Assembly: GCA_001817505.1 (NCBI GenBank) | Contig: MHIM01000038.1 | Coordinates: 1 to 47,734, forward strand | From: Candidatus Buchananbacteria bacterium RIFCSPLOWO2_01_FULL_39_33 | Lineage (GTDB): Bacteria > Patescibacteriota > Patescibacteriia > 2-01-FULL-39-33 | Direction of reading: 5' to 3' | DNA: 47,734 bases | Part shown: in pieces, positions 10,905 to 44,682 of the stretch | Layout of the letters: each line of letters starts with the position of its first letter | Numbering within the stretch: position 1 is the first letter of the stretch | The notes under the pieces: generated by a model | What the model was told of the DNA's origin: nothing | The model's database searches: none | Seen by the model: the letters and a program-made list of their open reading frames with translations, nothing else | Program-made: the position numbers and the translations under genes

Positions 10905-12022
10905 TATTTAAACTGATTGATTATCTTTAAAACTAATTTATCCAAGTTGTGATCATTAACCACGATTTTCCTTAAGCTCTTTATAATTGCCTCTTTTTCT
11001 TCAGCCGGCAAATCCATCAGCCATTTTATTTTTTCTGCCAGTTTTTGAGGATTGTTTTTTTCGACCATCAATTCTTTGGGCAAAATTTCTCTAAAAGCCT
11101 CATTGGAAGTTAAAACCAGGCACTGGCAAGCCATGGCCTCTAAAACTACCTTGTCCACGCTACCAGTACCACTCATATTAATAAATAAGTCCGCCTCTTG
11201 ATAATAAGGCGGCATTTGTTGATTGGCTACCCAACCAACAAATTCCACCTGCTGGCCTAAATCCATGGCCACCACCATTTGTTTTAGACTATCCAAATAC
11301 TGGCGCTGAACCTCTAAAATAACATCGCCGATAATTTTCAATTTTACCCTATTAAATTTCACCTCTGGTAAACCGGCTTCGCCGGATTTAACAAGGTGAA
11401 TCTGCTTATTACCTAAAATATCCAAGGCCTTAATAATTGACTCATAATCTTTAGTCGGCGAAATACGGCCGACAGAAATAATATTAAAATCTTCATTAAT
11501 TTTGAGTTTTTGCGCCAAAGGCGCATCCGCCTCTGGCGGAGAATTTTGAGTTTTGAATTGTTCTATATCAATGCCATGGCCAGTCACTTCAACTTTATTT
11601 TTAAACCAGGGCTGACGAAAACTGTCTTTTGAGGCAGTTAAAATTTTATCGGTCAACAATTCTAATAATCGACGTTTCCAATTAATCTGCTTATGGGTAT
11701 ACCAACTAACTATTCTTTTACCAAAAATTTTGGCTGGTAACCAAGATAAAATCGTGTATTCGGGATTCATGTGACAAAAAACACCATCAACTTTTAAGGC
11801 TAACTTAAAAACTTCCCACGGCAAAATAAAAATTTTAGCAAATTTATTTTTTGGCAAAAAAACCACTTCAATATTTTCCGGCAGATCACGACTATCCCCG
11901 GCTTGCCAAGAAATAACATATAATTTATTTAAATTGGCACCAAGTTTTTTCACCCAATTATAAGCAAAACCGGCTAAAGCGTCATGGTTATCAACTTTTC
12001 TGGTGATCATTAATAGTTTCAT
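10904..12022 (-). CDS. Glycosyltransferase family 4 with two repeat-derived insertions
   Basis: IISVGRISPTKDYESIIKAL, VVLEAMACQCLVLTSNEAF; insert peptides SPPEADAPLAQ and VKSGEAGLPEVKFNRVK map to palindromic DNA at 11498-11554 and 11343-11402. Confidence 0.88.
   Translation of the reverse strand: MKLLMITRKVDNHDALAGFAYNWVKKLGANLNKLYVISWQAGDSRDLPENIEVVFLPKNKFAKIFILPWEVFKLALKVDGVFCHMNPEYTILSWLPAKIFGKRIVSWYTHKQINWKRRLLELLTDKILTASKDSFRQPWFKNKVEVTGHGIDIEQFKTQNSPPEADAPLAQKLKINEDFNIISVGRISPTKDYESIIKALDILGNKQIHLVKSGEAGLPEVKFNRVKLKIIGDVILEVQRQYLDSLKQMVVAMDLGQQVEFVGWVANQQMPPYYQEADLFINMSGTGSVDKVVLEAMACQCLVLTSNEAFREILPKELMVEKNNPQKLAEKIKWLMDLPAEEKEAIIKSLRKIVVNDHNLDKLVLKIINQFK
11343..11402 (-). repeat. Three-way-junction palindromic element, copy A (within GT4 ORF)
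   Basis: Minus strand GATTCACCTTGTTAAAT-CCGGCgaaGCCGG-TTTACCagaGGTGAAA-TTTAATAGGGTAAA. Confidence 0.85.
11498..11554. repeat. Double triloop hairpin flanked by 13-bp direct repeats
   Basis: AATTTTGAGTTTT - TGCGCCaaaGGCGCA - TCCGCCtctGGCGGA - g - AATTTTGAGTTTT. Confidence 0.9.
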
Positions 12023-12025
12023 AAA

Positions 12026-13429
12026 TTAATTCTTTAAAAAAGAAAATAGGGCGCTTAAAGAACTAAAGGCCTCTTTGATTTCTTGGGGATGAGTTAATAA
12101 TCTTTTTAAGCGCATTAAAATATACCTGAAACGAAAATAATATTTCTTATAGCAATAATGGTAAAGATCGGAAATTTCTTTTTGGCTGATATTTTTTAAC
12201 TGCATTATCGGCTTAGATAAATCATAATCGTCCCAATTATAAGTCATGATTAAATTCTGATTTTTGGCCTCGGCAAACATTGGCGTGCCTGGATAAGGCG
12301 TCGTGATATTAAAAATAGCGATTTCCGGATTAAGTTCAATGGCAAACTTCAAAGTTTCTAAAATCGTCTCTTTGGTTTCTATCGGGTTGCCGATCATAAA
12401 AGCCCCGCGAACATCAATTTTAGCTTGTTTAGTCAATTTAACCACTTTTCTTACCAAATCCAGATTTATTTTCTTGTCAATTGAGTTCAAAACTTCTTGA
12501 TTGCCGCTTTCAATGCCATACATAATCTGGTGGCAGCCAGCTTGTTTCATTAATTTCAATAAATCCAAATCAATAAAATCCACCCGCGAGAAACAGCACC
12601 AGGCAATATCCATTCTACTCTCCAATAATAACTGGCAAAATTTTTTAACGTTGGCCTTATAGGTAGTAAAGGTATCGTCATAAAACATAATTTGCTTGAT
12701 GCCAAAATCTTTCATCAACATTTTAATTTCTTCGATGAGCGATTCAGCTGAGCGAAACACCATCTGGGTACCTAAGGTTTTGTTGCAAAAAGTGCAGCGT
12801 CCCGGGCAACCGCGGCTGGTCAGCAAACTAATGGCTGGTAAACGCTGATAAGAGCCCTTAGCCGGATAATATTTAGCCATCGGCAATAAATCATAGGCCG
12901 GGAAAGGCAAAGCGTCTAAATCAGTTATCCGAGCTCGCGGCGGATTAAAAATAACCTGGCTATTATTCTTATAAATCAAACCGTTGATTGTTGATAGTTC
13001 GCGGCCAGCTAAAATTTCCGACATAGTTATTTCACCCTCGCCCTTAACCACTAAATCTACGGTTTCTTGATTAATAACTTCTTGAGGCAAGGCAGCGCAG
13101 TGCGCTCCGCCAAAGACAATTTTGGCTGCCGGATAAATTTGCCTGATAATTTTAGCCATCTCATAAGCATTGTTAATGGCGGCGGTAGTGGCTGTAAAAC
13201 CGACATAGCGAGCCCGGTAATTCTCTAAATCACTTTTTAAATAATCGGCGAAGCTCTCTACAGAAATTTTTTCCGCCGGTGCGTCAATTATTTTAACCCT
13301 AAAACCCTTAGACCTAACGTAGGCGGCAATGGAAGCTAAACCAAGAGAAGGAAAAGATGAATCAATTTTCTGCCAGATATTAGCCTCTCTTTTAAATAAA
13401 GTGGGGTTGATTAATAGAACATCTAACAT
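12026..13429 (-). CDS. B12-binding domain radical SAM protein
   Basis: LLTSRGCPGRCTFCNKTLGTQMVFRSAESLIEEI, IMFYDDTFTTYK, RGAFMIGNPIETKETI. Confidence 0.9.
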   Translation of the reverse strand: MLDVLLINPTLFKREANIWQKIDSSFPSLGLASIAAYVRSKGFRVKIIDAPAEKISVESFADYLKSDLENYRARYVGFTATTAAINNAYEMAKIIRQIYPAAKIVFGGAHCAALPQEVINQETVDLVVKGEGEITMSEILAGRELSTINGLIYKNNSQVIFNPPRARITDLDALPFPAYDLLPMAKYYPAKGSYQRLPAISLLTSRGCPGRCTFCNKTLGTQMVFRSAESLIEEIKMLMKDFGIKQIMFYDDTFTTYKANVKKFCQLLLESRMDIAWCCFSRVDFIDLDLLKLMKQAGCHQIMYGIESGNQEVLNSIDKKINLDLVRKVVKLTKQAKIDVRGAFMIGNPIETKETILETLKFAIELNPEIAIFNITTPYPGTPMFAEAKNQNLIMTYNWDDYDLSKPIMQLKNISQKEISDLYHYCYKKYYFRFRYILMRLKRLLTHPQEIKEAFSSLSALFSFLKN

Positions 13430-13433
13430 TATT

Positions 13434-14573
13434 TTAAAAATTAACTATTTTTAATAAATCCCAAGATAAAGAAGCGTTCCTAATCAGATAATTAATGGCG
13501 GCATAAATCAATAAAAGCAGAATTATCACATATTTATCTTTTAATTTGGACAAACCGAAAGCACTGACCATTGATAGTAAGGGGACAAAAATAAAAGCAA
13601 TTCTTTGAGTCAGGCCCGGCCAAATCAAAAAAGCCAAAGAAGCTGGCAATAGCGCCAATAAAATCTTAAATCTTTGGGAATTGAAATTTTTGTACTCTTG
13701 ATACAAACCATAGAAAAAAATCGGCCAGCCGATTAAAAACAGCCAGCCCAAAACTTTTATCAATAAAATAATGCTCCAATTAATGTCTGGCTGCTGGGTA
13801 TTATAAATAGTGGCCTCAACGGCATATAAATACCGGTCAAGATAGGAAAAGCCGAATTTTAAATAAACAAAAATATAATACCAGGCCGGTAAAATTGAAA
13901 ATAAAATGACAGTGATAATCAATTTCTTTACTTTTTGCCACCAAGACCAAGGTAAAAATAAAATTAATAGACCCAAGGGCGCCATGCCTAATGCCCCGTA
14001 CTCTTTGAATAAAACTCCTACTGAAGAAGCGAGAATTGAAAGATAGAAAAATTTTTTATTTTTAGGATTATTAAAATACTTAATGGCTAAGAACATTGCC
14101 AGTATAAAGAAAAACCAGCCACCCAAATCAGTCCGATAGGTAATACCATAATTAATCAGGCAATAGTTGGTAAAAAATAAAACGCTAGCTATGAGGGCAA
14201 CTCGTTGATCGCCATAGACGGTTTTGACCAATTCATAAAAAACCCAGATGATTAAGAAATAAAAAATAAGATTAATAAAAAACAGGCCTTGGTATTCGCC
14301 ACCAAAAAACCAACCAGCCAAGATAGATGAATAGAGCATTAAAGGAGTAGTCAAAATTCTGGTTTTAAGCATCAGCTCGGTTTGCTCACCTAAAAAATTG
14401 CGGTCGTAATCTTGGCCTTGAATTAATTGCATGGCCGCTAAGTAAGAGGGGGCATCGCCATTTAACATCAAGGGGTAGCGCACAAAAAACAGGGCAATCA
14501 ATAAGTTAATGGTGGCCAAGAAAAAAAGCCAAAAATATGGTGATTTAACAGTTAATTTTAAGTTTAGTGTCAT
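13434..14573 (-). CDS. Multi-pass membrane glycosyltransferase-like protein (GT39/ArnT-like)
   Basis: About 10 TM helices, early acidic motif YPLMLNGDAPSYLAAMQLIQG. Confidence 0.6.
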   Translation of the reverse strand: MTLNLKLTVKSPYFWLFFLATINLLIALFFVRYPLMLNGDAPSYLAAMQLIQGQDYDRNFLGEQTELMLKTRILTTPLMLYSSILAGWFFGGEYQGLFFINLIFYFLIIWVFYELVKTVYGDQRVALIASVLFFTNYCLINYGITYRTDLGGWFFFILAMFLAIKYFNNPKNKKFFYLSILASSVGVLFKEYGALGMAPLGLLILFLPWSWWQKVKKLIITVILFSILPAWYYIFVYLKFGFSYLDRYLYAVEATIYNTQQPDINWSIILLIKVLGWLFLIGWPIFFYGLYQEYKNFNSQRFKILLALLPASLAFLIWPGLTQRIAFIFVPLLSMVSAFGLSKLKDKYVIILLLLIYAAINYLIRNASLSWDLLKIVNF

Positions 14574-14587
14574 TGTTTTGGGGACTC

Positions 14588-14616
14588 TTGATTTAAAATG
14601 CCATTTTTGCTAAAAT
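14588..14616 (+). promoter_or_regulatory. Putative sigma70-type promoter for the diacetamido-sugar module
   Basis: TTGATT (14588-14593) - 17 bp - TAAAAT (14611-14616). Confidence 0.5.
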
Positions 14617-14767
14617 ACACGAGACAAAAAATACTGGCTATTTTACTTATTTTACCTCTTCCTAATCACCCAGAAACTGCTACTGACTTAATTGATTTGA
14701 GAATAAAATTGGCTGACCTTAATTCACTCATATTAGCAGTAAATTAAGATAAATTCAACTCTTAAAA

Positions 14768-16942
14768 ATGGTCCCTTTCGTTGACTTAAAAACCCAATAT
14801 CAAACCCTTAAAACCGAGATCGACTTAGCGATCACTGGTGTTTTAGAAAAAACTAATTTTATTTTGGGCGAACCGGTGGCTAAATTTGAAGAAAATTTTG
14901 CTGCCTTTAGTGATTCTAAATATTGCGTCGGCGTTTCTTCCGGCACTGATGCCCTTTATCTGGCTTTAAAAGCTTTAAATATCGGTCCGGGCGATGAGGT
15001 GATTATTCCAGCCAATACTTTTGTAGCCACCGCTATTGCCGTTTCCCAAACCGGCGCTACGCCGATTTTAGCCGATGTTGATCCTCAAACTTTTAATCTT
15101 GATTTAGACAAATTAGAAGCCAAGATAACTCCTAAAGCTAAAGTTATTATTCCCGTCCACTTATACGGCCGAGCCGTTGAGATGGACCGATTAATGGCTT
15201 TAGCCAATCGCTATAATTTGCCAGTGGTGGAAGACGCCTGCCAAGCCCATGGCGCGACTTATCAAAACAAAAGGGTCGGCTCTTGGGGAATAATCGGCTG
15301 TTTCTCCTTTTACCCGGGAAAAAATTTAGGCGCTTACGGTGATGGTGGAGCGATTGTCACCTCCAATCAGGAACTTTATGAAAAAATAAAGATGTTAAGA
15401 AATTATGGTTCAGTTAAAAAATACTACCACGAGATCATCGGCTATAATAATCGCTTAGACACCATCCAAGCCGCTGTTTTGGATGTTAAGTTAAAATGTC
15501 TAAATGAATGGAATCAAAAGCGTTTTAACAACGCCAAACTTTACAATCAAAAATTATCGGGAATTTCCGATATTATCCTACCAGAAATACCTGAAAGCTT
15601 TGGCTTACAGCAACATGTTTTTCACTTATACGTCATCCGGGCCAGAAAAAGAGATGAACTCTTAAAATACTTAAATGACAACGGCGTCCAGGCCGGCATT
15701 CATTATCCGATTCCTATTTACTCCTTAGGAGCTTATGCTGACCTTAATTTAAACAAGGATGATTACCCGGTAACTGAACAATTGGCCAAAGAAATTATTT
15801 CTCTGCCGATGTTTGCTGAATTAACCGAAGAACAAATTGACACCGTCGCCAATTTGATTAAAAAATTCTATCAAGCAGAACCAATAAATTATAACTTTAA
15901 TCCAACTGATAAAAAAGAAATAATTAATTTCGGCTTAATCGGTTATGGCTACTGGGGGCCGAATTTTGCCCGCGATCTTAATGAAGCCCAAAACGCTAAT
16001 TTGAAATATTGCGCTGATTTAAGCGATAATAATTTAAACAAAATCAAACAAAAATATCCTCAAGTTATTACCACTAATAATTATCAGGCTATTTTAAATG
16101 ACCCGACTATTGACGCCATAGTCGTGGCCACACCCACTAAAACCCATTACCAGATCGTTAAGGACGCGCTTTTAGCTAAAAAGCATGTCTTTGTAGAAAA
16201 GCCGATGTGTTATAAAATAGAAGAAGCCGAAGAACTGGTGACCTTAGCCCAAACCAATAGAGTTAAATTAATGGTCGGTCATATCTTCCTTTTTAATCCA
16301 GCCGTTAATTATATAAAAAAAATCATTGATGATGGTGAGATTGGCAAATTAAGGCATTTGCATTTTCAACGAAGGAATTTAGGGCCGATTCGCCAAGATA
16401 TTAATGTAATGTGGGACCTGGCGCCCCATGATATTTCTATGGCTTTGCATTTTATTGGTAAAATGCCGATATCGGTGGTAGCCATTGGAGAAACTTTTTT
16501 GCAAAATGGCCAACGCAGCATGCATGATGTGGTTTCCGTCAGTTTGAAATTTCCCGACAATATTATGGCTAATATGATTTTTAGCTGGATTGATCCAATT
16601 AAAATCAGGGATCTGACGATAGTCGGCGATCAAAAAATGATTTTATTTGATGATGTCCATCAATCGGAAAAAGTTAAAATTTTTAACAAAAATGTTAATG
16701 TTTTGGAAAATACTCGAGATGTTACTTTCGGCGAATACCAAATTAACATTAATACCGGCGGTATTACCATTCCTTCAATCAGCCCTAAAGAGCCGCTCAA
16801 AGAAGAAATAAGTCATTTTATTGATTGTATTATAAATAATAAGACGCCTATAACTGATGGAGAAAACGGTTTAGCGGTAGTTAAGGTACTGGCTCTAATC
16901 CAAAAATCCTTGGATAATAATTCAGTTAACATACCTATTTGA
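14768..16942 (+). CDS. Fused DegT/DnrJ/EryC1/StrS aminotransferase - Gfo/Idh/MocA oxidoreductase (WbpE/WlbC-like + WbpB/WlbA-like)
   Basis: N-half: SSGTDALYLALKAL, VEDACQAHGA, CFSFYPGKNLGAYGDGGA (PLP Lys). C-half from about aa 385: FGLIGYGYWGPNFARDL, VVATPTKTHYQIV, KHVFVEKPMCY. Confidence 0.93.
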   Translation: MVPFVDLKTQYQTLKTEIDLAITGVLEKTNFILGEPVAKFEENFAAFSDSKYCVGVSSGTDALYLALKALNIGPGDEVIIPANTFVATAIAVSQTGATPILADVDPQTFNLDLDKLEAKITPKAKVIIPVHLYGRAVEMDRLMALANRYNLPVVEDACQAHGATYQNKRVGSWGIIGCFSFYPGKNLGAYGDGGAIVTSNQELYEKIKMLRNYGSVKKYYHEIIGYNNRLDTIQAAVLDVKLKCLNEWNQKRFNNAKLYNQKLSGISDIILPEIPESFGLQQHVFHLYVIRARKRDELLKYLNDNGVQAGIHYPIPIYSLGAYADLNLNKDDYPVTEQLAKEIISLPMFAELTEEQIDTVANLIKKFYQAEPINYNFNPTDKKEIINFGLIGYGYWGPNFARDLNEAQNANLKYCADLSDNNLNKIKQKYPQVITTNNYQAILNDPTIDAIVVATPTKTHYQIVKDALLAKKHVFVEKPMCYKIEEAEELVTLAQTNRVKLMVGHIFLFNPAVNYIKKIIDDGEIGKLRHLHFQRRNLGPIRQDINVMWDLAPHDISMALHFIGKMPISVVAIGETFLQNGQRSMHDVVSVSLKFPDNIMANMIFSWIDPIKIRDLTIVGDQKMILFDDVHQSEKVKIFNKNVNVLENTRDVTFGEYQININTGGITIPSISPKEPLKEEISHFIDCIINNKTPITDGENGLAVVKVLALIQKSLDNNSVNIPI

Positions 16943-17415
16943 AAATGGAAAAATTAAACATTACTGAACCTAAAAAAAACATCAATGACGTTTTGGTCGG
17001 CCAGAATGTTAAAATTTACGATTTTGTCAATCTTTATGGCTGTGAAATTGGCGACGGTAGCCAGATCGGCACTTTTGTGGAAATCCAGCGTGGCGCTAAA
17101 ATTGGCCAGAGATGCCGAGTTCAATCCCACACTTTCATTTGCGAAGGTGTAACGATTGAAGACGAAGTTTTCATTGGCCACGGCGTGATGTTTATCAATG
17201 ATAATCACCCCAATATGGAAAAAACTTTAAATAAAACCTGGGAATTAAAACCAGTTTTAATTAAAGCGGGCGCTGCCATTGGCAGTGGCGCCATTATTAT
17301 GGGCGGAATTACTATCGGCGAAAAAGCTGTAATTGGCGCCGGAGCGGTAGTTACCAAAAATGTGCCAGCGGGCGCGATTGTTGTCGGTGTGCCAGCTAAA
17401 GCATTATTAAAGTAA
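16939..17415 (+). CDS. Left-handed beta-helix hexapeptide N-acyltransferase (WbpD/WlbB-like)
   Basis: Hexapeptide repeats (IGDGSQIGTFVEIQRGAKIGQRCRVQSHTFICEGVTIEDEVFIGHGVMFIND). TTG start overlaps previous stop; ATG at 16945 is an alternative. Confidence 0.9.
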   Translation: MKMEKLNITEPKKNINDVLVGQNVKIYDFVNLYGCEIGDGSQIGTFVEIQRGAKIGQRCRVQSHTFICEGVTIEDEVFIGHGVMFINDNHPNMEKTLNKTWELKPVLIKAGAAIGSGAIIMGGITIGEKAVIGAGAVVTKNVPAGAIVVGVPAKALLK

Positions 17416-17424
17416 TTTAATAAT

Positions 17425-17458
17425 AAAAATTGTCCAACACGAAATTATGACAATTTTT
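17425..17458 (+). terminator. Intrinsic terminator after acyltransferase
   Basis: AAAAATTGTC...GACAATTTTT. Confidence 0.6.
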
Positions 17459-17479
17459 AGCTAAATTTACCAGAAGATC

Positions 17480-17508
17480 TTGACAAAGTATGTTACGTAT
17501 GATAGTGT
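17480..17508 (+). promoter_or_regulatory. Putative promoter of 17584 CDS
   Basis: TTGACA - 17 bp - TAGTGT; downstream leader hairpin CCACGA-gagta-TCGTGG and RBS AAAGGA. Confidence 0.55.
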
Positions 17509-17583
17509 TGTTTCATAGGCCTATTGCCTAACTCTGCCACGAGAGTATCGTGGATAGCTCCTTAAAAAGAAAGGACATCGACC

Positions 17584-18273
17584 ATGGGTACTATGCTCGG
17601 TGAAGCGCTCCGTTCTGCCTACGGACCGTTCGAAGATCTCGCAAGAAAACTTGCTGGACGAAATGGAGAAGTTTGGTACGAAGCCCTTAAACATTTTCTG
17701 CGTAAAGAAGAGGTCTGGGTTAAACCTCCTAAAAAACAACATCTGGAATATCGAGATAGTATTTCTATTACTGGTCAAAACCCGTTTGTGGCCAAAGACC
17801 ACTTTAAAGAAGATATGTCATCCACAGCTCCAGTGAGAATCCGTAAAATCGGAACAAATTTCCAAGAGCATTTTCTTGACAAGGTGGAAGAAGGTAGTGA
17901 TACTGCTGATCTGAAAATTCAGGAGTATCAGTTTTATCGTTCTGATTGGTCATATTTTTCTGATATTCTGACGGAGTTGGGTAAAAATTGCGAGATAAAA
18001 CTCTCTCATCTCTGGGAAATGCTTTGTCTGCAACGCAATGGAGAAGAAGGTAAACTTAGTCATAGTAATTGGAACATCGCTTTTATTAAAGACAAATCTG
18101 ATATCCTTTGGGTGGTGGGTGCTCGCTGGTGTGAGTATCAGAGATGTCAAAGTCAATTAGCCACCTCTTACTCTGAATCACTTCCAACAAATACAATTTG
18201 GGAGATAGAAGCATTTCATATCGGCCAAGAAATTCCCGGGTCTTATCTTCGTTGTGTGGTTTCTCGCATCTAA
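17584..18273 (+). CDS. Conserved hypothetical protein, possibly a CPR-restricted family
   Basis: Own promoter, RBS and terminator; DLARKLAGRNGEVWYEALKHFLRKEEVW N-terminus and ISLSHLWEML..LWVVGARW-type C-terminal half, which I recall from CPR hypothetical proteins. Confidence 0.8.
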   Translation: MGTMLGEALRSAYGPFEDLARKLAGRNGEVWYEALKHFLRKEEVWVKPPKKQHLEYRDSISITGQNPFVAKDHFKEDMSSTAPVRIRKIGTNFQEHFLDKVEEGSDTADLKIQEYQFYRSDWSYFSDILTELGKNCEIKLSHLWEMLCLQRNGEEGKLSHSNWNIAFIKDKSDILWVVGARWCEYQRCQSQLATSYSESLPTNTIWEIEAFHIGQEIPGSYLRCVVSRI

Positions 18274-18280
18274 TAATAAA

Positions 18281-18316
18281 GGGCAGTTTCCTTCGGGGAG
18301 CTGCCCTAATTTTTTC
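18281..18316 (+). terminator. Intrinsic terminator
   Basis: GGGCAGTTTCCttcgGGGAGCTGCCC followed by AATTTTTT. Confidence 0.8.
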
Positions 18317-18330
18317 TATTACAAAAAAAT

Positions 18331-18359
18331 TTGACAAAAATATAAAAATATGATAAATA
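18331..18359 (+). promoter_or_regulatory. Putative promoter of 18439 CDS
   Basis: TTGACA - 17 bp - TAAATA; leader carries TCTCTATAGAGA and GTTAAGGGTCT...AGACCTAAC stem. Confidence 0.55.
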
Positions 18360-18438
18360 TATTTTGATCTCTCTATAGAGATAGGGTTAAGGGTCTGCCG
18401 TCAAAAGACCTAACGTTCTTTGGAAAAGGAGATCAATC

Positions 18439-19305
18439 GTGGCAATCTACCTGTCTTTTGGTTTTGATGATGAAAGGCCATTCGGCCAATTAGCCAAAAC
18501 TGATAAAGGCGCAGAATTTCGTAAGAAAAAAATGGCTTTTCTGAAACGATTTATGGATACTTTTGACACAGAAGAAATTCCCAGAACTCTTTTCATTTTA
18601 GGCGATTATCTTAATAATTGCCAATTAGATGTTGCTCCGGGAGAGTTAGAAGACATCTACTTGAGACCGCTTAATGACATTGCTCAACATTCCTATTCTC
18701 ATGGTATGATCAAGCGTATAGAGGGCTATGCCACCGACCGGCCGATTATGACGCCGGCAGATTTTTTGGCTGATGTTAAAAAAGCTAATGATGTCTTGCA
18801 AGCAATATTGGATGTGAAGCCATCGGGTTTGAGAATCCCCCTGGGTTATGACAATGATCTTTCAGACATTCCCGAAATTGTCCAAGAATTAAAAGAACTA
18901 GGTTTCTCCTATGTTTCCTCTGATTTAAGAGCCAGCGATTCCTTTAATGCGCCATTAACTGCTAGTCGCCAACCTCATTGTTACACTAATATTGGTTGTC
19001 CAGGAGTAGCGGAACTACCATCTCATGGTTGGCAAGATGTGGTATTTACGCAAGAAAAGTCCCAGGCGCTCTTGGGACGCACCCCGCCTGCTCCTAAAGA
19101 AATAATTGAGCATTTTGTTGGGCTCTTTGACAGAGCCAGACAATTGGAATTGCCCGATGTTTATATTTCCTTATGCCTGCATCCCTGGGCAGTGATGGAT
19201 TATGATCCCAATCTGGAAATCCTTTTAACCGTCGCTCGAACAGCCAGAGAGCAACAGATTGAAATTATCACCTATAGTGACGTGGCTAAGAAAATTATTA
19301 GCTAA
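18439..19305 (+). CDS. Polysaccharide deacetylase (NodB-like)
   Basis: YLSFGFDDERP, DIAQHSYSHGMI, LRIPLGYD, SLCLHPWAVMD. GTG start with AAAAGGAG RBS. Confidence 0.8.
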   Translation: MAIYLSFGFDDERPFGQLAKTDKGAEFRKKKMAFLKRFMDTFDTEEIPRTLFILGDYLNNCQLDVAPGELEDIYLRPLNDIAQHSYSHGMIKRIEGYATDRPIMTPADFLADVKKANDVLQAILDVKPSGLRIPLGYDNDLSDIPEIVQELKELGFSYVSSDLRASDSFNAPLTASRQPHCYTNIGCPGVAELPSHGWQDVVFTQEKSQALLGRTPPAPKEIIEHFVGLFDRARQLELPDVYISLCLHPWAVMDYDPNLEILLTVARTAREQQIEIITYSDVAKKIIS

Positions 19306-19321
19306 TCATCTAGACAAATTT

Positions 19322-19355
19322 AAACGGTGTAATCCTGCAGGATTACACCGTTTTT
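19322..19355. terminator. Bidirectional intrinsic terminator between convergent genes
   Basis: Perfect palindrome AAACGGTGTAATCCTGCAGGATTACACCGTTT with flanking T tract. Confidence 0.88.
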
Positions 19356-19364
19356 CTAACAAAA

Positions 19365-20069
19365 TTATTTCTTAATACCGAACCTTAAATAAATAACCGG
19401 TTTGGAAATCCGCCACCAGTCGCGCAACGGCACCATTTTAGTATAGCCCTTTTCTTTGAAATAACGCTTAGTCACCGGCACTTCCTTAACTCTGGATTTA
19501 TCAATTTTAACGGCCCAGCAAAGCAAGTATGGCTCAAGCTCATAGTGATTTAACCATTCCTGGTTAAGATTTATTTTGTCTAAAAGTGAAACTCTAACAG
19601 CCCGAAAACCATTAGTGCCGTCAGTGAAGGGAAAACCGGTAAATAATCGAATAAAAATGCCATAGGCCTTAGTAGTAATCCGCCTAAAGAGAGGGATATT
19701 CTCCACCCCCCCGCCTTTTAGCCAGCGTGAACCCTGAATTAAATCATAGCCACCACTGATAATCGGCTCGACCACCCGAGGTATCTGCTCGGGCGGATCT
19801 TGGTCATCACCGCCCATCACCGCAATAACTTCCATACCATCGGCTTTGGCTTTAATAAAGCCATCTCTGATACCAGCACCCACACCCAGATTTTTTTCGT
19901 GTTTAATCACTACTGCGCCGGCTTTTTCAGCCAGTTCCACTGTTTTATCAGTAGAACCGTCATCAACCACATAAACCGTATCAATTAAAGACACGTTTTT
20001 AACCCCCTTAACTACATTCTCAATATGTTGTTCTTCATTGTAAGCCGGTATCACCATGCCAATTTTCAT
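19365..20069 (-). CDS. Glycosyltransferase family 2 (dolichol-phosphate mannosyltransferase-like)
   Basis: MKIGMVIPAYNEEQHIENVV, VVDDGSTDKTVELAEKAGAVVIKHEKNLGVGAGIRDG, GGDDQDPPEQI. Confidence 0.9.
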   Translation of the reverse strand: MKIGMVIPAYNEEQHIENVVKGVKNVSLIDTVYVVDDGSTDKTVELAEKAGAVVIKHEKNLGVGAGIRDGFIKAKADGMEVIAVMGGDDQDPPEQIPRVVEPIISGGYDLIQGSRWLKGGGVENIPLFRRITTKAYGIFIRLFTGFPFTDGTNGFRAVRVSLLDKINLNQEWLNHYELEPYLLCWAVKIDKSRVKEVPVTKRYFKEKGYTKMVPLRDWWRISKPVIYLRFGIKK

Positions 20070-20074
20070 AAAAA

Positions 20075-21205: not shown

Positions 21206-21216
21206 TGTTATTTTAA

Positions 21217-21912: not shown

Positions 21913-21913
21913 A

Positions 21914-25298: not shown

Positions 25299-25381
25299 AA
25301 GTTTTATTATTCTTGCCAGGCTGTTATGGCGAATAGGTTCATCGCTTTGCTCGGGATAAACTCCGCAATCTCATCTGATAT

Positions 25382-26642: not shown

Positions 26643-26676
26643 TATTATTTTTGCTACATAACATGTTACGTAACAA

Positions 26677-29863: not shown

Positions 29864-29875
29864 TTCAAGGCCATA

Positions 29876-29904: not shown

Positions 29905-29922
29905 ATTAAAAACCAACGATAC

Positions 29923-30282: not shown

Positions 30283-30287
30283 AAAAT

Positions 30288-32477: not shown

Positions 32478-32508
32478 AAAATCTCTGAGATATTTCTTGA
32501 CATGTTCT

Positions 32509-32540
32509 AAAAGTGCTCCGATTCACATCGGAGCACTTTT
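32509..32540 (-). terminator. Intrinsic terminator of 32560 CDS
   Basis: AAAAGTGCTCCG...CGGAGCACTTTT. Confidence 0.82.
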
Positions 32541-32559
32541 TATAATTCATAGATAAACT

Positions 32560-33828: not shown

Positions 33829-33865
33829 ACGGCTAAAATTAATTAAATAAATTCCCTTGCCTTAA

Positions 33866-34546: not shown

Positions 34547-34851
34547 AGAGTTTTTTAAATTAACCCCAATCCCTAAACTTACTTCGGATTGAAGCATTAA
34601 TAAAGTTTATTAAATATACTGTTAATTATAACAAAATGAGGCAAAAATAAAAACAAGGATGGGCTGTGGATAAGTTAAATCAAAAAAATAATAAAACCAA
34701 AAAACAAAAAAACAAACAATAATAATAAGAATAAAATTTATAAATTAGATCTGTCTGACTCTAGATAAAAATAGGAAATGAGACCTACCAGTTGGACAGC
34801 AGAAATTAAAATTAATTGTAAACTAATAATTATTTATCTAAATTTAGCTAA

Positions 34852-36969: not shown

Positions 36970-36995
36970 AAATATTTTTTAATGTCATAGTTTGG

Positions 36996-37023
36996 GTAGA
37001 GACGGGGCATGCCCCGTCTCTAC
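36996..37023. repeat. 28-bp perfect palindrome, copy 1 of 3
   Basis: GTAGAGACGGGGCATGCCCCGTCTCTAC. Confidence 0.95.
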
Positions 37024-37044
37024 CTTTATTGAAATCTTAAAAAA

Positions 37045-37767
37045 TTAATTACCGCTCTTAAACTTATTGTATTCATCTTTTAGGGCCTGGTTTTGGGGTG
37101 AGAGTTTGATGGCTTGCTCATAATATTTAATCGCCTCTTCCTTATTGCCTTGGTCGCGATAAAATTCCGCGCTTAAAACCATAAAGTCAACGCTATCAGA
37201 TTTAATAGCCAAGGCCTTTTTAAGAGCGGCCTCGGCCAACGGCTTATTGGGGCATTTAGTATTATAGAAATCAAAAATATTCCTTAAATAAGCAATTTCG
37301 TTGGGGTCATTGGTAGTGGCAATTTTGAAATATTTTTCCGCTTCGGCGCAATTCTTATAAATGTCAGCGTATAAATTGCCTAAATTATAAAATGACGGGC
37401 TGCTGCTGGGACGAATCTGGTTGACATAAAGCCAGAGATCCCGCGCGCCATCATAATCACCAACTGTATATTTGACCATAGCCGCGCCCATAAAAGCGTT
37501 GAAGTTGAATTTTTCCGGTGACTCTAAAACCGTATCTTTATAAACCGTCATTTCATTGCGATATTTTTCATTAAAGGCCGGAGTCAGATCAGTTCTAACC
37601 ATCTTAAAAGCAAAAAGCTTTTCAATTTGGCTGTCTATGTTATTATCATTATTATTCCGGTTGAATTTCAGCCAGCCGCTTTTATCAAAACCAGAAAAAT
37701 AAAGGCCCAACATTAAAACCACAAAAATAAGGCCGATGATAATTAATTTATTTCTAAAAATTTGCAT
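37045..37767 (-). CDS. Membrane-anchored TPR protein
   Basis: N-terminal TM (KLIIIGLIFVVLMLGLYF), TPR motifs including EEAIKYYEQAIKLSPQNQALKDEYNKF. Confidence 0.8.
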   Translation of the reverse strand: MQIFRNKLIIIGLIFVVLMLGLYFSGFDKSGWLKFNRNNNDNNIDSQIEKLFAFKMVRTDLTPAFNEKYRNEMTVYKDTVLESPEKFNFNAFMGAAMVKYTVGDYDGARDLWLYVNQIRPSSSPSFYNLGNLYADIYKNCAEAEKYFKIATTNDPNEIAYLRNIFDFYNTKCPNKPLAEAALKKALAIKSDSVDFMVLSAEFYRDQGNKEEAIKYYEQAIKLSPQNQALKDEYNKFKSGN

Positions 37768-37832
37768 AAAATAATTCTTATTTTAATTATTAAGTTAATA
37801 TAGGATTGCTTCGCAAACTCGCAATAACAATA

Positions 37833-40256
37833 TTATTTCAATGTTTGCAAGAAAATTTCCGCTTCAGCTTGTAAATTAGGATCAAGTTCCACCGCTTTTA
37901 AGACCGCTGTTTTAGCTTTATTATTGTCGCCAATTTGCTGATAGGCCACCGCTAATTTAGCGTATAACAAGGCCTCGGTTGGCTTATTGGTTATTTCTTC
38001 GGCTAAAAGCTCAACGACTCTTGACCAATTGCCGGTTTGCGAATAAGCATTGATTACCCGGTCAAAAATAACCGGATTGCCGGTGGCCTCGCCGACCGCT
38101 TTGGCAACTGTAAGTTCTTGGTCGGCTTCATCGTTTCGGCCAGCCAGAATATAGGCCAAAAATAAATTCCAATGGGATTCCATAACATTGGGACTTAAGT
38201 CCAATGACTTTTGGCAATCACTAATAGCTTCATCATATAAATCCTGATTCATATAGGACTGGCATCTTTCAGAATACATTTGAGGACGAGTCGGGCTTAA
38301 AGGCATAGCTTTAGTTAACAGCTTAACCGCTGCTATCGGATACTGTGAATTTATTTTATAAGCTGAATTATAAACAGTCGCCAAATACAGATGATTTCTG
38401 ACATTTTGCGGCTCTTCGGCAATACTTTTTTTAAGTTCACTAATCACTAATTCGGCCAGTGGCGCTAAAATAGCGTCATCAACTTTCTGGCCTTTAATTA
38501 AAGCCAGCAAATAATTAGCCAGCTGTTGTCTGGTTTCAAACCGGCCAATCGGGCTTAAATCAATGGACTCTTTTAAAATATCAACTACTCGCTGGTCATA
38601 TAAATCCCCTGGTTTGTTTCGTAAAGCCAACTGATAAGCTACTAAGCGGTTAGCTTGAGCGGCTTTAACATTAAACTGATAAGTAAAAATCAGAAAAATA
38701 ACAGCCAAAAATATTAAAGGAAATAAAGCATAATTTTTAGCTGGCGTTAAACGCTTATTATTGATCTGATCAGGTTGACACCAAAAAACCACCAACCCCC
38801 AGATCAAGAAAATCACTATTTCGCTATTTAAAGTATCAAAAACAAAAAGATTTTGAATGAAATAAGCGATAATGGCCGCCAAAATAATAAGATAGGAGAA
38901 ATCCTGGGTTTGACGATGGGTTTTAATAATCTGCCAAAAGGCCGCCAGATAAATCAATAAATAAACTGTCAAGCCGACAAAACCAGTGGAAACAGCCACG
39001 TCCACCACCACGTTATGCGCCCGATCAAACCATAACTGGGAACCGCGATCCCGATATATTTCGGTGGGAAAATATTTATTGAAAGCGTCTTTATAATTTT
39101 CTATGCCCCAACCTAAAATCGGGCGATCTATTAAGCCCTTGATACTGCCACGCCAAGTCGTCAAGCGCGACTGGGTGGTAATATCAGTAGCCGAGATGGT
39201 GGCCAACCGCCTTAAAGTCGGCTGATTCTGGATAAAACTGGCGTCACGATTGAAATAAACAATTAAAGGCGAAGCAATAAGCAACAATAAAACAATTAGT
39301 GATAATGACACTGATAATTTATTTTTAATTTTCTGATTATAAGACCGGTTAAAAATCAAGCTTAAAATAGCCAGTATGACCAAGCCCAGATAAAGGCCTA
39401 AAACCGCGCCGCGGGTTTGGGTAGAAAATAAAATAAAGCTTTCAAACAACAAAATAATGGTCAGTAAAAACCGGATGGCTTGATATTTATTTTTATAAAA
39501 CCAAGCCAAGCCGGCCAAGAGATGAATAAAAATGAAAGACACTAAAAAAATCTTATTGGACAAGATCGGTACTAAAAAACCGCGGTCAATTGTTAAACGA
39601 GAATAAACTTCATAAGCAATTAAAAATAAATCAAAGCCCAGCCAAGTATAAAAAAATAATTTTATTTTTAATTGTTTGTTCCAAAATAAGTAAAGACCCA
39701 GCCATAAATTGAGCAGCAAATAACTGGCGAAGAAAGCGGCATTGCCGATACTGCTGGATAACCTCTCGCCGCTGCCGACTTTAGAAATAACCCCGGTATT
39801 CAAATATTGCGCTAAAGCAATAAAACTGGCTATTAAGCTGACAAATAAAGAAATTGTTAGGGCTTTTAGCCAGTCATCTTTGGTTTTAAAAATATTAATT
39901 AAGACCAAAAAATATAAATAAAGGTGAGCTAAATGAAATAAACCGCCCATGCGCTCATAATCGCCCCATAAGCTGATGTAAAAATTAACTCCGGTCAGAG
40001 AAGCTAAAAGCAAAACCACAAAAAAAGCGGTGATGATTTTGGCTAACAGATTAAAACGCGGCCGGTAATTTTTATCAGCTAAAATTAAATAAAGATAAAG
40101 GCTAAAAATTAATTCAGTAATAATCCTAAAAGCGATATCACGCGGCACAATAAAAGGGAAATAAAATGAGCCGCTAGCCAAGAGTGGCAAAAATAAAACA
40201 GCCAATAAGCCGATTTTTATAATTGCTACTATATATTTTTCCAATTGTAATTTCAT
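37833..40256 (-). CDS. O-antigen ligase/polymerase family membrane protein with C-terminal TPR region (paralog of 34852 CDS)
   Basis: True start MKLQLEKYIVA (CAT 40254-40256); ORF-track extension is repeat-derived. TRGAVLGLYLG, RPILGWGIENYKDAFNKYFPTEIYRDRGSQLWFDRAHNVVVDVAVSTGFVGL. Confidence 0.9.
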   Translation of the reverse strand: MKLQLEKYIVAIIKIGLLAVLFLPLLASGSFYFPFIVPRDIAFRIITELIFSLYLYLILADKNYRPRFNLLAKIITAFFVVLLLASLTGVNFYISLWGDYERMGGLFHLAHLYLYFLVLINIFKTKDDWLKALTISLFVSLIASFIALAQYLNTGVISKVGSGERLSSSIGNAAFFASYLLLNLWLGLYLFWNKQLKIKLFFYTWLGFDLFLIAYEVYSRLTIDRGFLVPILSNKIFLVSFIFIHLLAGLAWFYKNKYQAIRFLLTIILLFESFILFSTQTRGAVLGLYLGLVILAILSLIFNRSYNQKIKNKLSVSLSLIVLLLLIASPLIVYFNRDASFIQNQPTLRRLATISATDITTQSRLTTWRGSIKGLIDRPILGWGIENYKDAFNKYFPTEIYRDRGSQLWFDRAHNVVVDVAVSTGFVGLTVYLLIYLAAFWQIIKTHRQTQDFSYLIILAAIIAYFIQNLFVFDTLNSEIVIFLIWGLVVFWCQPDQINNKRLTPAKNYALFPLIFLAVIFLIFTYQFNVKAAQANRLVAYQLALRNKPGDLYDQRVVDILKESIDLSPIGRFETRQQLANYLLALIKGQKVDDAILAPLAELVISELKKSIAEEPQNVRNHLYLATVYNSAYKINSQYPIAAVKLLTKAMPLSPTRPQMYSERCQSYMNQDLYDEAISDCQKSLDLSPNVMESHWNLFLAYILAGRNDEADQELTVAKAVGEATGNPVIFDRVINAYSQTGNWSRVVELLAEEITNKPTEALLYAKLAVAYQQIGDNNKAKTAVLKAVELDPNLQAEAEIFLQTLK

Positions 40257-40279
40257 AATCTTTTTAGAAATACAGGTCT

Positions 40280-40307
40280 GTAGAGACGGGGCAGGCCCCG
40301 TCTCTAC
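40280..40307. repeat. 28-bp palindrome, copy 2 of 3
   Basis: GTAGAGACGGGGCAGGCCCCGTCTCTAC (one centre mismatch). Confidence 0.95.
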
Positions 40308-40358
40308 GGTTAATTTCCGGCCAATTCCTCCATCGCTTCGCTCTGCCGTTCCTGGGTA

Positions 40359-40386
40359 GTAGAGACGGGGCATGCCCCGTCTCTAC
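40359..40386. repeat. 28-bp perfect palindrome, copy 3 of 3
   Basis: GTAGAGACGGGGCATGCCCCGTCTCTAC, identical to copy 1. Confidence 0.95.
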
Positions 40387-40430
40387 AGTCAATTATAAAA
40401 ATAAGTATACAAAAAAACACAGCTAAAATC

Positions 40431-40460
40431 AAACAGCCCCGTCAAACGACGGGGCTGTTT
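40431..40460 (-). terminator. Intrinsic terminator of S-layer-like gene
   Basis: AAACAGCCCCGTcaaacGACGGGGCTGTTT followed on the minus strand by T-rich sequence. Confidence 0.85.
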
Positions 40461-40499
40461 TTCTATTTCAACAATTTACAACTATTTTAGACAACTACA

Positions 40500-43400
40500 T
40501 TAGAAGGTAGCTGATTGAGTAGAGGTAGCAAACAAGAGGTAACCGTTAGTCCACTCATTGGTGGCGGTAGCGGTACCGGTGTTGTTACCAAAGTTCAAAT
40601 CAGACCAAATGAAGCTGTCATTAGCTAAAGCATCGGTGGTGGTAGCATCACCTATGGCAGCAGCCGCGTTATCACCAATCAAAGCGATTGAGTAACTGTA
40701 GTTGCCTGAAGTGCTCTTGCCAACATCGCCTTTCAAAGCGAAGGTCTTGCTAGCACCGGCAGGAATAATTCGATATTCCCAACTTGGACTAGCCGTGTAG
40801 GCCTGGGTATTGAAGACAATGTTGTAACGGAGAGTTCCGCCTTCACCAGCCACAATCAGCTCTGGACGACCGTCAATTTCCGGAATACTGTAATTGGTCT
40901 CCCGGTAAGTGAGGTCAACCTGGCTGCCACCCGGATTTTCAATAAACTTCAAATTAGTGGTGGTGACACCGCTGTTAGCGCCAGTGGTAATGTCAAAGGT
41001 AACCTTGTAGAAACCAACATCGCCTTTAGCGTCAGCTGTCATGGTGAATTGGAACAGAGTGCGTTCATTGCCAGTGCCCAAACTGGAAGTAAAGTTACCA
41101 ATAGTTGGCTTGGAAGCGTAGATGTAGTTGCTGTTGGTAACCGTGTCTTGACCAGTAATGGTTAGAGCAGGATTTGAAGTACCAGTATTACCAGAGGATG
41201 TACCTTTAGCCGCAATGTTGGAGAAGGTGATAGTAAAGCTATCACCGGAAGCAGCGACTTTACCCGCACCACCGCCGACAGAGTCGCTAGTATTGGCCTT
41301 GACTGTCAAGGTCTTAACCGCAGCGACTGGAATAATTAATTGTCCGGCAGCCGGAGAAATGGTGGCATTAGTGCCACTGATTGGTATGTTCCAGGTAGTA
41401 GTGCCATCAGTAATATCAACACTGGAAACATCAGTAGCGCCAGCGGCATCATTGAAGGTCATACCGATATCGGTAATTTCAATGTTTTCATACAAGGCCT
41501 CAACATTAATGACACCGACAACATTGCCCGTGGTATTACCTACCAGGATTTGGTTGCCTGGGTTAGCGCCAGCGGCGTAGTAACGAAGAGTACCACCAGC
41601 AGAAATACTTTGAGCTTGGCCTTCAGAAGCGGTAACAGTCGCCGTAACTGAAGTGCCAGTGCCAGCGCCAGTAGCTGTTATATTACCAGCTCTGACAATG
41701 CCGAACTTATGCTGGAAAGTGTTTTCTTGCGGCGTACCCACACCAGAAGTAGAAGCTGAACCGGAAATACTACCTTTCAAAGTCAGGGTCTTAACGGTGT
41801 TCTTAGGAATAGTTAAGGCCGATAAAAAAGTGATAGTGGTGGTAGCGGTTGATCCATAGGTGCTGTCAGCTGTTTCCGAACTGCCCTGAACCGGAGTATT
41901 TAAAGCGGTATCGCCATCATATAAAGTTATATTTTGGATATCGCCGAAATAGCCCGGAGCCGTGGTGGTGTGCTTAATAGTCAACTGGGTAACTTTGATA
42001 TCTTCACCCGAACCAGAGGTATCAAGAGTAAAGTTGGCAAAAGTCCAGGGAGTCGGATTTCCTCTAACCACATTTTGAACGGCTGGGGAAGCCGAGGTTT
42101 TAACCGTCAAAGCAGCCGACTTAACCGTCAGAGTGTCCAAAGTCAAGAAAGTGCTCGGTGAAGCCGTAATGCTTAAGTTGGTGGTTTCACCTTTAGCCGT
42201 GGTTTTAGCGCTATCTAATCTAATAGCTAATGAAGCATTGGTTGCCCAAACAGCTGACGAAACCAAATCACCTTTGATGGTATACTTATTGGTGCCAACC
42301 GGGAAAGTAATGGTATCAGTAGAAGTAGCAAAACCAACGGGGTTGACTCCAGCATTGCCTGGATCAGTTGGGCCAGCTATAGTCGTACCATTTTCATCAA
42401 CGATTTTTACATTGATGATTTTAGCGCTACCAGTAGCGACATCAGCCACAATGCGAGTAACTATCACCGGTTCGCCAATAACTTGAACGTAGAAAGCGCT
42501 CAATTCTTGGTTAGTTACCGAAGGAGCGACATTGGTGCTGGTAATTGTGCCCTTAGAAAAAGTGATTGAGCCCTTATCAATAGTAGCTAATGGTCCTGGA
42601 ATTAAGTATGGCTCAACACTATTATCATAAGTCGGGTTAAGGTAAGAATTATAAGTCAAACCTTTAACCTTCCAGTCAGTTATCTTGCTCGGACCAAAAG
42701 AAGCCACTCGTCCAGAACCGTTGACGATATCGCCGCGGATGCTGAATTCTTTGCTATTGCCTTTAACAATCTTAACTGGCGTAGCAAAGCTAAAAATAAC
42801 TTCCCTGTCAACTAATGAACCAGTGCCAATAACTGTTACACCGTCTTGTAATAATTCAAGACCAGTGATGTCAGAATCAGCCGTGGTTGAGGCCTGATAC
42901 CATCTGATTGATTCAATTTGAATGTCTTCAGTGGAATTAGCCGTGGCCTTCAAAGAAGCAAAGATGTAGTTCTCGGTGCCAACTTGCTTGGTAGCGGCTG
43001 TTGGATTGTAAGAAGCGCCAGTAGCAGTAACCGTAACCGTGCCAATAGTCAAAGCGCTGTTAATGGTCATAATATTGCCAACAATTGGCAAGGTGCCAGA
43101 AACAACGGTTGAACCCTTAGGCGTAACGGTAACTAATGACAAAGAAGGCACATTACCGCCGCCTAAGCCAGAGGTAGCCATATTAGCTGCCAAAGTATAG
43201 GATTTGGTGGTGCCTTTGGGAATAGTCAAGTCAGTGGAGAATGTTACCTGGTGTGAGGAATTCAAGGTCTGGGAATTGCCAATAACATTACCACTGGCAT
43301 CCATTAAAATAATGGTGCCGAAATCCGTATCAGCGCCAATGCCGGTTCGCTGAACAACCAGACTGTCAATAACAGCATCGCCGTCAGAAGAGGCGGTGAA

Positions 43401-44243
43401 ATTGACTTTAGTAAAGCCAACTCGCTGGGCGCTGGTTAAAGCCAAGCCGGCAGCTGGGGTATCGGAAGCCAAAGCAACGGCTACCGAGCCAGCTGTAGCT
43501 ACAGTAGTAGCAGCCGTGCCAGAAACAGTGGTTAGAGCGGCCTCTTCCGCAGCAATGGAAGTGCCGGCAGTATAAGTCATAGTGGTGGCCACTGTAACTA
43601 CCGAGCTAGAGGCAAAGCCATTAGCAATAAAAGCATCATCGGCAACCAGTCGTTTTTTGCCGTCTTCAATATAATAGATATCCTCACTGCCTGAATACTT
43701 GATTAAAGAACCATCGGGCAAAGACGAGCTGGAAGTTAAAGCCGTGCCCTTGGTATAATCATTTTCAAAGCCATTTTGGATAGTAATGACTTTGCTGGCG
43801 TAACCGGTGCCAAAAAGAGCTTCAGCTACTGCAGCGTCGCCGCCAGAAGTAACCACTTCTCTTAATTCGGAGCCGGTAGAGACAACGTAAACTTTCGGAC
43901 TATTTTGGAATTTAATCAGCTTGGTGCCCGGTCTGACAACCACGTGGCCGCCAACTGACAGGGAATCAAAATCTGCTTGAGAAATAACATTTAGCGCCAC
44001 CGAATCATTGCCCATTTTGAGCGCTGACCAGCTGCCGCTATACCAAGTCCAGAAAGTAACGCTGTTGACGAACAAGTTTCGCTTGCCGTCAGCATCAATG
44101 TAGTAAACAGCGGGATCGGTGGCGGTCTTAATCAGATCGCCGGCCGCTGGCGTATAAGCGGCTGAAGCTGGAACTACAGCAGCTAAGCCAAGAGACCAGA
44201 TGATAGTCGCTATCACTACGAAATAAGTTACTAACTTTCTCAT
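40500..44243 (-). CDS. S-layer-like secreted protein (1247 aa) with repeated Ig-like beta domains
   Basis: Signal peptide ending ASAA; N-terminal GDLIKTATDPAVYYIDADGKRNLFVNSVTFWTWYSGSWS domain; repeated PKGT-KSYTLAAN / PKNTVKTLTLKG type units. Confidence 0.88.
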   Translation of the reverse strand: MRKLVTYFVVIATIIWSLGLAAVVPASAAYTPAAGDLIKTATDPAVYYIDADGKRNLFVNSVTFWTWYSGSWSALKMGNDSVALNVISQADFDSLSVGGHVVVRPGTKLIKFQNSPKVYVVSTGSELREVVTSGGDAAVAEALFGTGYASKVITIQNGFENDYTKGTALTSSSSLPDGSLIKYSGSEDIYYIEDGKKRLVADDAFIANGFASSSVVTVATTMTYTAGTSIAAEEAALTTVSGTAATTVATAGSVAVALASDTPAAGLALTSAQRVGFTKVNFTASSDGDAVIDSLVVQRTGIGADTDFGTIILMDASGNVIGNSQTLNSSHQVTFSTDLTIPKGTTKSYTLAANMATSGLGGGNVPSLSLVTVTPKGSTVVSGTLPIVGNIMTINSALTIGTVTVTATGASYNPTAATKQVGTENYIFASLKATANSTEDIQIESIRWYQASTTADSDITGLELLQDGVTVIGTGSLVDREVIFSFATPVKIVKGNSKEFSIRGDIVNGSGRVASFGPSKITDWKVKGLTYNSYLNPTYDNSVEPYLIPGPLATIDKGSITFSKGTITSTNVAPSVTNQELSAFYVQVIGEPVIVTRIVADVATGSAKIINVKIVDENGTTIAGPTDPGNAGVNPVGFATSTDTITFPVGTNKYTIKGDLVSSAVWATNASLAIRLDSAKTTAKGETTNLSITASPSTFLTLDTLTVKSAALTVKTSASPAVQNVVRGNPTPWTFANFTLDTSGSGEDIKVTQLTIKHTTTAPGYFGDIQNITLYDGDTALNTPVQGSSETADSTYGSTATTTITFLSALTIPKNTVKTLTLKGSISGSASTSGVGTPQENTFQHKFGIVRAGNITATGAGTGTSVTATVTASEGQAQSISAGGTLRYYAAGANPGNQILVGNTTGNVVGVINVEALYENIEITDIGMTFNDAAGATDVSSVDITDGTTTWNIPISGTNATISPAAGQLIIPVAAVKTLTVKANTSDSVGGGAGKVAASGDSFTITFSNIAAKGTSSGNTGTSNPALTITGQDTVTNSNYIYASKPTIGNFTSSLGTGNERTLFQFTMTADAKGDVGFYKVTFDITTGANSGVTTTNLKFIENPGGSQVDLTYRETNYSIPEIDGRPELIVAGEGGTLRYNIVFNTQAYTASPSWEYRIIPAGASKTFALKGDVGKSTSGNYSYSIALIGDNAAAAIGDATTTDALANDSFIWSDLNFGNNTGTATATNEWTNGYLLFATSTQSATF

Positions 44244-44682
44244 AAATGAATTAAATATTTATTTATTAAAAGATCCGTTTAAAAATAGGCTAGAAACAAA
44301 AGTTAGAATCCCTGTCCGCCTCTGGCGGATTATCCGCCCAAAACGGAATGAACAAAAAGGTTTCCTAAACTCTACCAAACTAAGAGCATCGCTATAAAGC
44401 GATTCAACCTTTGCTAAATAGCCAGTAGAGAACTTAAGTTCTATTTACCCTGTTAAATCCCACAAAGTGGGAATTTCACCAAAGGCGAAATTATTTAACA
44501 GGGTGAATCCCAAATTTGTAACGAACCTCCCAATTGGTATGTTTGCGCATGGGATTACCGCTTAACGCTTTTTATTTAAAACTGCGCTTAGCGGTAACTC
44601 CATGGTTACCAATTATTAAGATTAAATGGCCGCGCCGGCCAGAGTAGAATTTTCTGGTTAAAAATTTGAATTATATCGGCTT
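44244..44682 (-). promoter_or_regulatory. Highly structured S-layer leader/intergenic region
   Basis: Contains TCCGCCtctGGCGGA, ATCGCTataaAGCGAT, AGAACTTAAGTTCT, three-way-junction element 44444-44509, and 83-bp imperfect palindrome 44532-44614. Confidence 0.7.
44444..44509 (-). repeat. Three-way-junction palindromic element, copy B (S-layer leader)
   Basis: Minus strand GATTCACCCTGTTAAAT-AATTTCGCCtttGGTGAAATT-CCCACtttGTGGG-ATTTAACAGGGTAAA. Confidence 0.88.

Follow-up and report, generated by a model that had tools for sequence, protein, structure and literature searches.

The window analysed here is the whole 47,734-nt stretch of DNA from Candidatus Buchananbacteria bacterium RIFCSPLOWO2_01_FULL_39_33. 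Two copies of a short palindromic element are present at the positions where the original prediction had placed them, 11343-11402 (copy A) and 44444-44509 (copy B). A summary is given in Table 1. Copy A lies inside a glycosyltransferase gene. Copy B is intergenic, 200 nt upstream of the minus-strand ORF 40500-44243. This position had been described as an S-layer leader, a description we do not uphold since the downstream ORF lacks a Pfam match and exhibits only a signal-peptide-like start. The same glycosyltransferase gene holds a second insertion at 11512-11539, consisting of two adjacent triloop hairpins (GCGCCAAAGGCGC and CCGCCTCTGGCGG) with near-direct repeats (AATTTTGAGTTTTTG) on its flanks; it is in frame and missing in the three orthologues that also lack copy A. 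Another palindrome family, GTAGAGACGGGGCATGCCCCGTCTCTAC, has three copies in the window (36996-37023, 40280-40307 and 40359-40386).

Table 1. Coordinates of the features of copies A and B in the window.
Feature	Position	Strand	Basis
Copy A, outer arm; 3' arm on the coding strand, codons F-N-R-V	11343..11357	-	
Copy A, inner hairpin TTCACC-TCT-GGTAAA (plus-strand letters)	11358..11372	-	
Copy A, inner hairpin CCGGC-TTC-GCCGG (plus-strand letters)	11373..11385	-	
Copy A, outer arm; 5' arm on the coding strand, codons H-L-V-K	11386..11400	-	
Exact 54-nt in-frame insertion, copy A in the glycosyltransferase gene	11345..11398	-	orthologue comparison
Host gene of copy A, family 4-type glycosyltransferase, Pfam Glycos_transf_1	10904..12022	-	
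Copy B, outer arm TTTACCCTGTTAAAT	44444..44458	.	
Copy B, inner hairpin CCCAC-AAA-GTGGG (plus-strand letters)	44459..44471	.	
Copy B, inner hairpin AATTTCACC-AAA-GGCGAAATT (plus-strand letters)	44472..44492	.	
Copy B, outer arm ATTTAACAGGGTGAA	44493..44507	.	

The outer arms of A and B are near-identical (TTTACCCTGTTAAAT / ATTTAACAGGGTGAA and variants). As predicted, they surround two adjacent triloop hairpins whose sequences are unrelated between the copies, and both copies fold as a three-way junction on the minus strand. The further claim that every irregularity in the stems is a G-U wobble on the minus strand is wrong, as each outer stem has a minus-strand C x A mismatch, TTCACC facing GGTAAA, that reads as G-U on the plus strand. 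A shared orientation of the two copies holds for the TTC/GTAA asymmetry of the arms only; by hairpin order and loop type the covariance model matches opposite strands, plus for A (64 bits) and minus for B (91 bits). Scanning of the window gave no Rfam match at the gathering score, and the short elements match no Rfam family.

Copies A and B are members of a large family and not an isolated pair. About a dozen occurrences of the arm pattern with zero mismatches are found in the source genome. The paired-arm pattern has four exact copies there and is also found in two genomes of the same taxonomic family (G006 and G009), with 0 control matches, so that the likeness of A and B is far beyond chance. 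The covariance model search suggested along with the original prediction (model R1) returned 12 distinct loci in the source genome, many copies in G006 and G009, three in G001 and few or none in other genomes. Within the class, 9 of 334 genomes from 7 families carry the exact paired-arm pattern (controls zero), and in each of these copies the arms are identical and the hairpin pair is different. A scan of GTDB species raised the number to at least 113 loci. Among the matches listed, the hosts comprise many lineages of Patescibacteria, Omnitrophota, Cloacimonadota, Calditrichaceae, WOR-3, Bacteroidales and Desulfobacterota-type genomes. Nearly all listed loci of Patescibacteria and Omnitrophota show the two adjacent hairpins; in the listed forms from WOR-3 and Bacteroidales the arms are present and the inner hairpins absent. 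Viral contigs, searched for carriage by phages, yielded one match. The elements of G009 range from 60 to 145 nt and have their ends in common with different interiors. Near-identical copies in G248 and G006 are parts of larger duplications and therefore reveal no element boundaries.

Several loci show further arrangements of the arms. At L201 and L282, with flanks 96% identical, the inner hairpins stand in reversed order and one is replaced, as though, with the arms unchanged, the interior had been inverted or exchanged at the same site. A nesting of palindromes is seen in Nomurabacteria and others, where a further palindromic element (TAATGAGCGAAGCGAATATA ...) has the present one at its centre (L195, L197, L232, L240, L268, L270, L284). 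Related arm pairs enclose longer palindromes at L014 and L024 (G000:C11 and C40), one of them just upstream of a 16S rRNA gene. Moreover, the compensated arm variant GTCAAAT/ATTTGAC surrounds a complete tRNA-Ile(UAU) gene at L020:1405-1516 (G000:C33:3314-3425), whose acceptor stem runs on into the enclosing arms.

The pairing of the interior was evaluated over many copies. In 124 distinct inner sequences 89.5% of the possible hairpin pairs are formed, compared with 63.7% in shuffled interiors, and 89 of the 124 beat all 50 of their shuffles. An alignment of 14 short copies shows pairing in 97.8% of cells, with two-sided changes in 11 pairs and 37 cells versus 6.0 and 10.8 after shuffling (0/500). 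The covariation proposed as a check is thus significant across many copies, and both the conserved frame with variable inner hairpins and the mobility are borne out. A different picture emerged for the RNA form on which, or through which, selection or movement had been suggested to act. The coding strand of 22 short copies within ORFs shows 5 G-U wobbles versus 7 A-C, that of 12 nuclease-bearing elements (see below) 3 versus 5. As there is no excess of G-U on the transcribed strand, the wobble pattern of the two copies was due to chance. Both strands preserve the structure to the same degree, as would be expected of DNA, and it thus appears to be DNA on which selection or mechanism acts. It appears that the DNA fold, more than the sequence of the interior, is what is inherited.

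The elements behave like mobile DNA. Three glycosyltransferase orthologues (71, 63 and 62% identity) have no copy A. Relative to these empty orthologues an in-frame stretch of exactly 54 nt separates ATT from AAA, and the comparison with all three revealed neither a target-site duplication nor a direct repeat. Overall, 25 of 145 distinct elements are located inside long ORFs, 24 of these 25 with a length that keeps the frame (binomial p = 6e-11), and in 22 the same frame is used, which reads HPVK...FN(R/G)V. Stops in the arms close one of the three frames per strand, hence the frame preference is partly mechanical. A frame-keeping length is also in excess among the elements outside ORFs (58/120, p = 7e-4).

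One surface loop of TsaE carries an element in three families (G006, G251 and G309), with different hairpins in each. Relatives readable at this loop are without the element there, and the insertions fit TT|AA with no duplication. The tsaE gene of the source genome (L369) has a palindrome of the GTAGAGACGGGGCATGCCCCGTCTCTAC family in frame, in the loop that is occupied by arm-bearing elements elsewhere. Copies near the N-termini are found in serine hydroxymethyltransferase and uvrC. At the 5' end of uvrC two congeneric species have the element with different hairpins (L013, G000:C4:55875, and L056, G001:C11:44637).

Arm pairs set further apart delimit elements of ~290 nt in G009, G000 and G001. 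Their sole ORF codes for an intact GIY-YIG protein of 84 aa (Pfam PF01541, E 1e-14 to 1e-16), the C-terminus of which, RLKSYLTG*, is encoded by the right arm. The catalytic domain matches the Pfam model at E 3e-16, and the expected catalytic residues Y5, Y16-x-G18, R26 and E62 are invariant in 12 proteins. Nearest solved structures are those of small GIY-YIG proteins of the UPF0213 type (PDB 1zg2, 1ywl); these are stand-alone proteins, whereas the element protein has an arm-encoded invariant tail, RLKSYxxG. Homologues at E < 1e-20 exist in 64 of 286 genomes, and the 12 closest ones, from several families, are all bounded by these arms or by compensated variants thereof (CCCCG/CGGGG, CTGAAAT/ATTTCAG, GTGAAAT/ATTTCAC). 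A DDE, Y1 or serine transposase was not found between the arms, where the only ORF found in these elements is PF01541. The one distant arm pair examined, 1.8 kb apart in G009:C20, contains ordinary genes and no transposase, and a long composite transposon was rejected on this ground.

Inside the arms of the nuclease element AATTTTAAATTT pairs with AAATTTAAAATT and AAGATTTGAGC with GCTCAAATCTT. The exact adjacency of these inner helices beats shuffles in the nuclease elements of this arm family. As the two helices meet exactly, the fold of the nuclease element is again this three-way junction, its two loops holding the halves of the ORF. In the alignment of 12 nuclease elements, 14 of 40 pairs are changed on both sides compared with 4.3 in shuffles (0/500), in all three helices; when the partners were slid by 1-3 columns as a control, only 1-3 two-sided pairs remained. 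The first hairpin of the short copies often begins AATT.../...AATT and resembles the base of the parent's first helix. An ORF-bearing element is situated upstream of pyk in G009 and G000 and is absent from G005 (the genus of G009), from G001 and G002 (the genus of G000) and from G003 and G004. AAATTA flanks are seen at one pyk insertion but are not general.

The association of nuclease and inverted arms extends beyond this arm family. Strong flanking inverted repeats were observed at 30 of 76 small GIY-YIG loci versus 7 of 378 swapped controls. Several arm families can be distinguished among these repeats; nearly all begin (A)CCC, and they usually overlap the 3' end of the ORF. From this we predicted that other arm families have short copies as well. 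A second arm family, CCCGTTAGAG...CTCTAACGGG, was derived from GIY-YIG loci in G171, G278 and further genomes, and it was indeed found as short elements of 45-69 nt in 10 of 381 genomes (controls 0). Of its 22 short elements ten form two hairpins, among them perfect two-hairpin junctions in G332 and G104; several of the rest lack this fold.

Short copies and a matching nuclease co-occur weakly, the latter being present in 3 of 9 short-copy genomes versus 12 of 286 (p = 0.004, before correcting for relatedness). A GIY-YIG ORF with the same arms often went undetected in genomes with short copies (G006, G248, G309, G332). No co-occurrence is seen for the second arm family, where the genomes with short copies differ from those with the closest matching nuclease. 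The variant arm GTGAAAT has its sole short copy in G202 and none in G257 or G272.

Other GIY-YIG ORFs were encountered in different surroundings. One has a different flanking inverted repeat of its own (ATCCCACACATAACTTACAC ... GTGTAAGTTATGTCGTGGGAT, L262:4085-4352). Distant single-domain GIY-YIG ORFs stand directly upstream of tRNA genes (L160, L161, L162, L167, L169, L172, L176), often after a GC-rich palindrome and mostly without these arms.

We consider it probable that A and B are non-autonomous, protein-coding palindromes which are mobilised as branched DNA by a structure-selective GIY-YIG nuclease. One DNA strand of the short element, composed of the inverted arms YACCCTGTTAAAT ... ATTTAACAGGGTR and two adjacent hairpins, can fold into a Y-shaped three-way junction. 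The putative autonomous relatives of ~290 nt combine the same arms and junction with a single gene for the 84-residue nuclease; its last codons form the right arm, and each of the inner hairpins has one half of the gene in its loop. In a first step the element would be extruded as a cruciform, or fold as single-stranded DNA at replication. The nuclease may then recognise arm sequence and junction and nick at the base of the junction; PMC6902002 and PMC10287932 describe cutting of branched DNA by the GIY-YIG enzymes SLX1 and ANKLE1. Finally, joining would place the folded element in a TT/AA-like site, leaving no visible duplication of the target. To our knowledge no joining activity is known for the nuclease alone. 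Genes would tolerate such insertions since the element length, increased by 2 nt, is divisible by 3 and since one frame (HPVK...FNRV) contains no stops. As pairing is all that is required of the inner hairpins, their sequences would drift and turn over, with the arms remaining constant. The whole would resemble a pair of IS and MITE, with a GIY-YIG nuclease as the enzyme, acting in trans on the short copies, and the three-way junction of the element's own DNA as the substrate.

In-frame insertions with a fixed peptide frame, variable copies in genomes without the nuclease and the published non-intron GIY-YIG insertions in CPR rRNA genes (PMC11270868) would also suit selfish palindromic elements of the kind known from Rickettsia (RPE), spread by some host or DDE-type machinery, the GIY-YIG protein being an invading homing endonuclease and cargo. 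We regard this as a serious but rather unlikely reading, given that the arms belong to the coding sequence of the nuclease, that the junction is conserved with covariation inside the ORF, and that several unrelated arm sequences each flank a GIY-YIG ORF, one of them having predicted new short elements. Ordinary MITEs of a conventional DDE transposon with terminal repeats resembling these arms are far less probable still. They would account for terminal inverted repeats in several copies per genome and for the sizes, common ends and different interiors in G009, but not for the missing target-site duplication of copy A, the GIY-YIG ORF between the arms or the distant arm pair around ordinary genes, and covariation is not expected of MITE interiors.

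Least credible to us is the reading of the original prediction, a structured RNA element (a regulatory or processing signal) selected as RNA. The strong conserved secondary structure with covariation, some copies just upstream of genes and the arm pair around the tRNA-Ile gene speak for it. Against it stand the missing G-U bias over A-C on the transcribed strand, the in-frame insertions in unrelated ORFs, the lack of Rfam matches in the window and the patchy presence between relatives, and it was rejected on the wobble strand-bias test and the Rfam search.

Mobilisation of branched DNA by the GIY-YIG nuclease, which we favour, can be compared with several known systems. Small hairpin DNA whose folded form could be a substrate is shared with REP/RAYT and IS200/IS605, whereas here no Y1 (HUH) transposase was found with the arms, the outer arms are long and perfect, and the fold is a three-way junction. 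An integron attC site was rejected, as the boxes here run opposite to the RYYYAAC ... GTTRRRY polarity, with GTTAAAT in the 5' arm and ATTTAAC in the 3' arm. As with MITEs, short non-autonomous elements share terminal inverted repeats with a longer ORF-bearing element (~290 nt here); in contrast to them, the partner ORF is an 84-aa GIY-YIG nuclease and no transposase, no target duplication was seen, and the interior is conserved by pairing only.

A group I or II intron with a homing endonuclease was dismissed because the window has no Rfam match and the 84-aa ORF fills the ~290-nt element. A 2024 survey of insertions in CPR rRNA genes described insertions with GIY-YIG ORFs that do not belong to the introns of group I or group II, as well as short ORF-less insertions (PMC11270868). 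A search of its text finds no inverted repeats, hairpins or palindromes, whereas our elements have arms, a junction, in-gene copies and non-autonomous derivatives. Both kinds of rRNA insertion, the GIY-YIG ones outside introns and the short ones lacking an ORF, may belong to the same system, which would be a possible explanation for their hitherto unexplained presence. Our literature search, which covered sources other than subscription papers and preprints, found no paper combining GIY-YIG, inverted repeats and these bacteria. More tentatively, and with slightly less than even confidence, we propose a new class of minimal transposable element of ~0.3 kb whose sole enzyme is a GIY-YIG nuclease recognising the three-way junction of its own arms and coding sequence, with many arm-specific lineages, spreading non-autonomous 60-nt hairpin copies that add in-frame protein segments across several bacterial phyla.

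The closest likeness in behaviour is to the RPE, the protein-coding palindromes whose first description, from Rickettsia, dates from 2000 (Ogata et al. 2000, 2002; reviewed in PMC10969869). Both are palindromic, multi-copy and in frame in unrelated genes, with a conserved encoded peptide and a stem-loop structure. RPE measure ~100-150 bp and form sequence-related families in Rickettsiales, whereas the short elements here have 60-66 nt (54-60 nt net), unrelated interiors and two inner hairpins in a three-way junction, occur in Patescibacteria, Omnitrophota and others, and have known relatives with a nuclease ORF. We know of no enzyme tied to protein-coding palindromes so far. The elements described here extend the behaviour of protein-coding palindromes to other phyla and come with a candidate enzyme associated with these very arms, and the movement of such elements thereby becomes directly testable.
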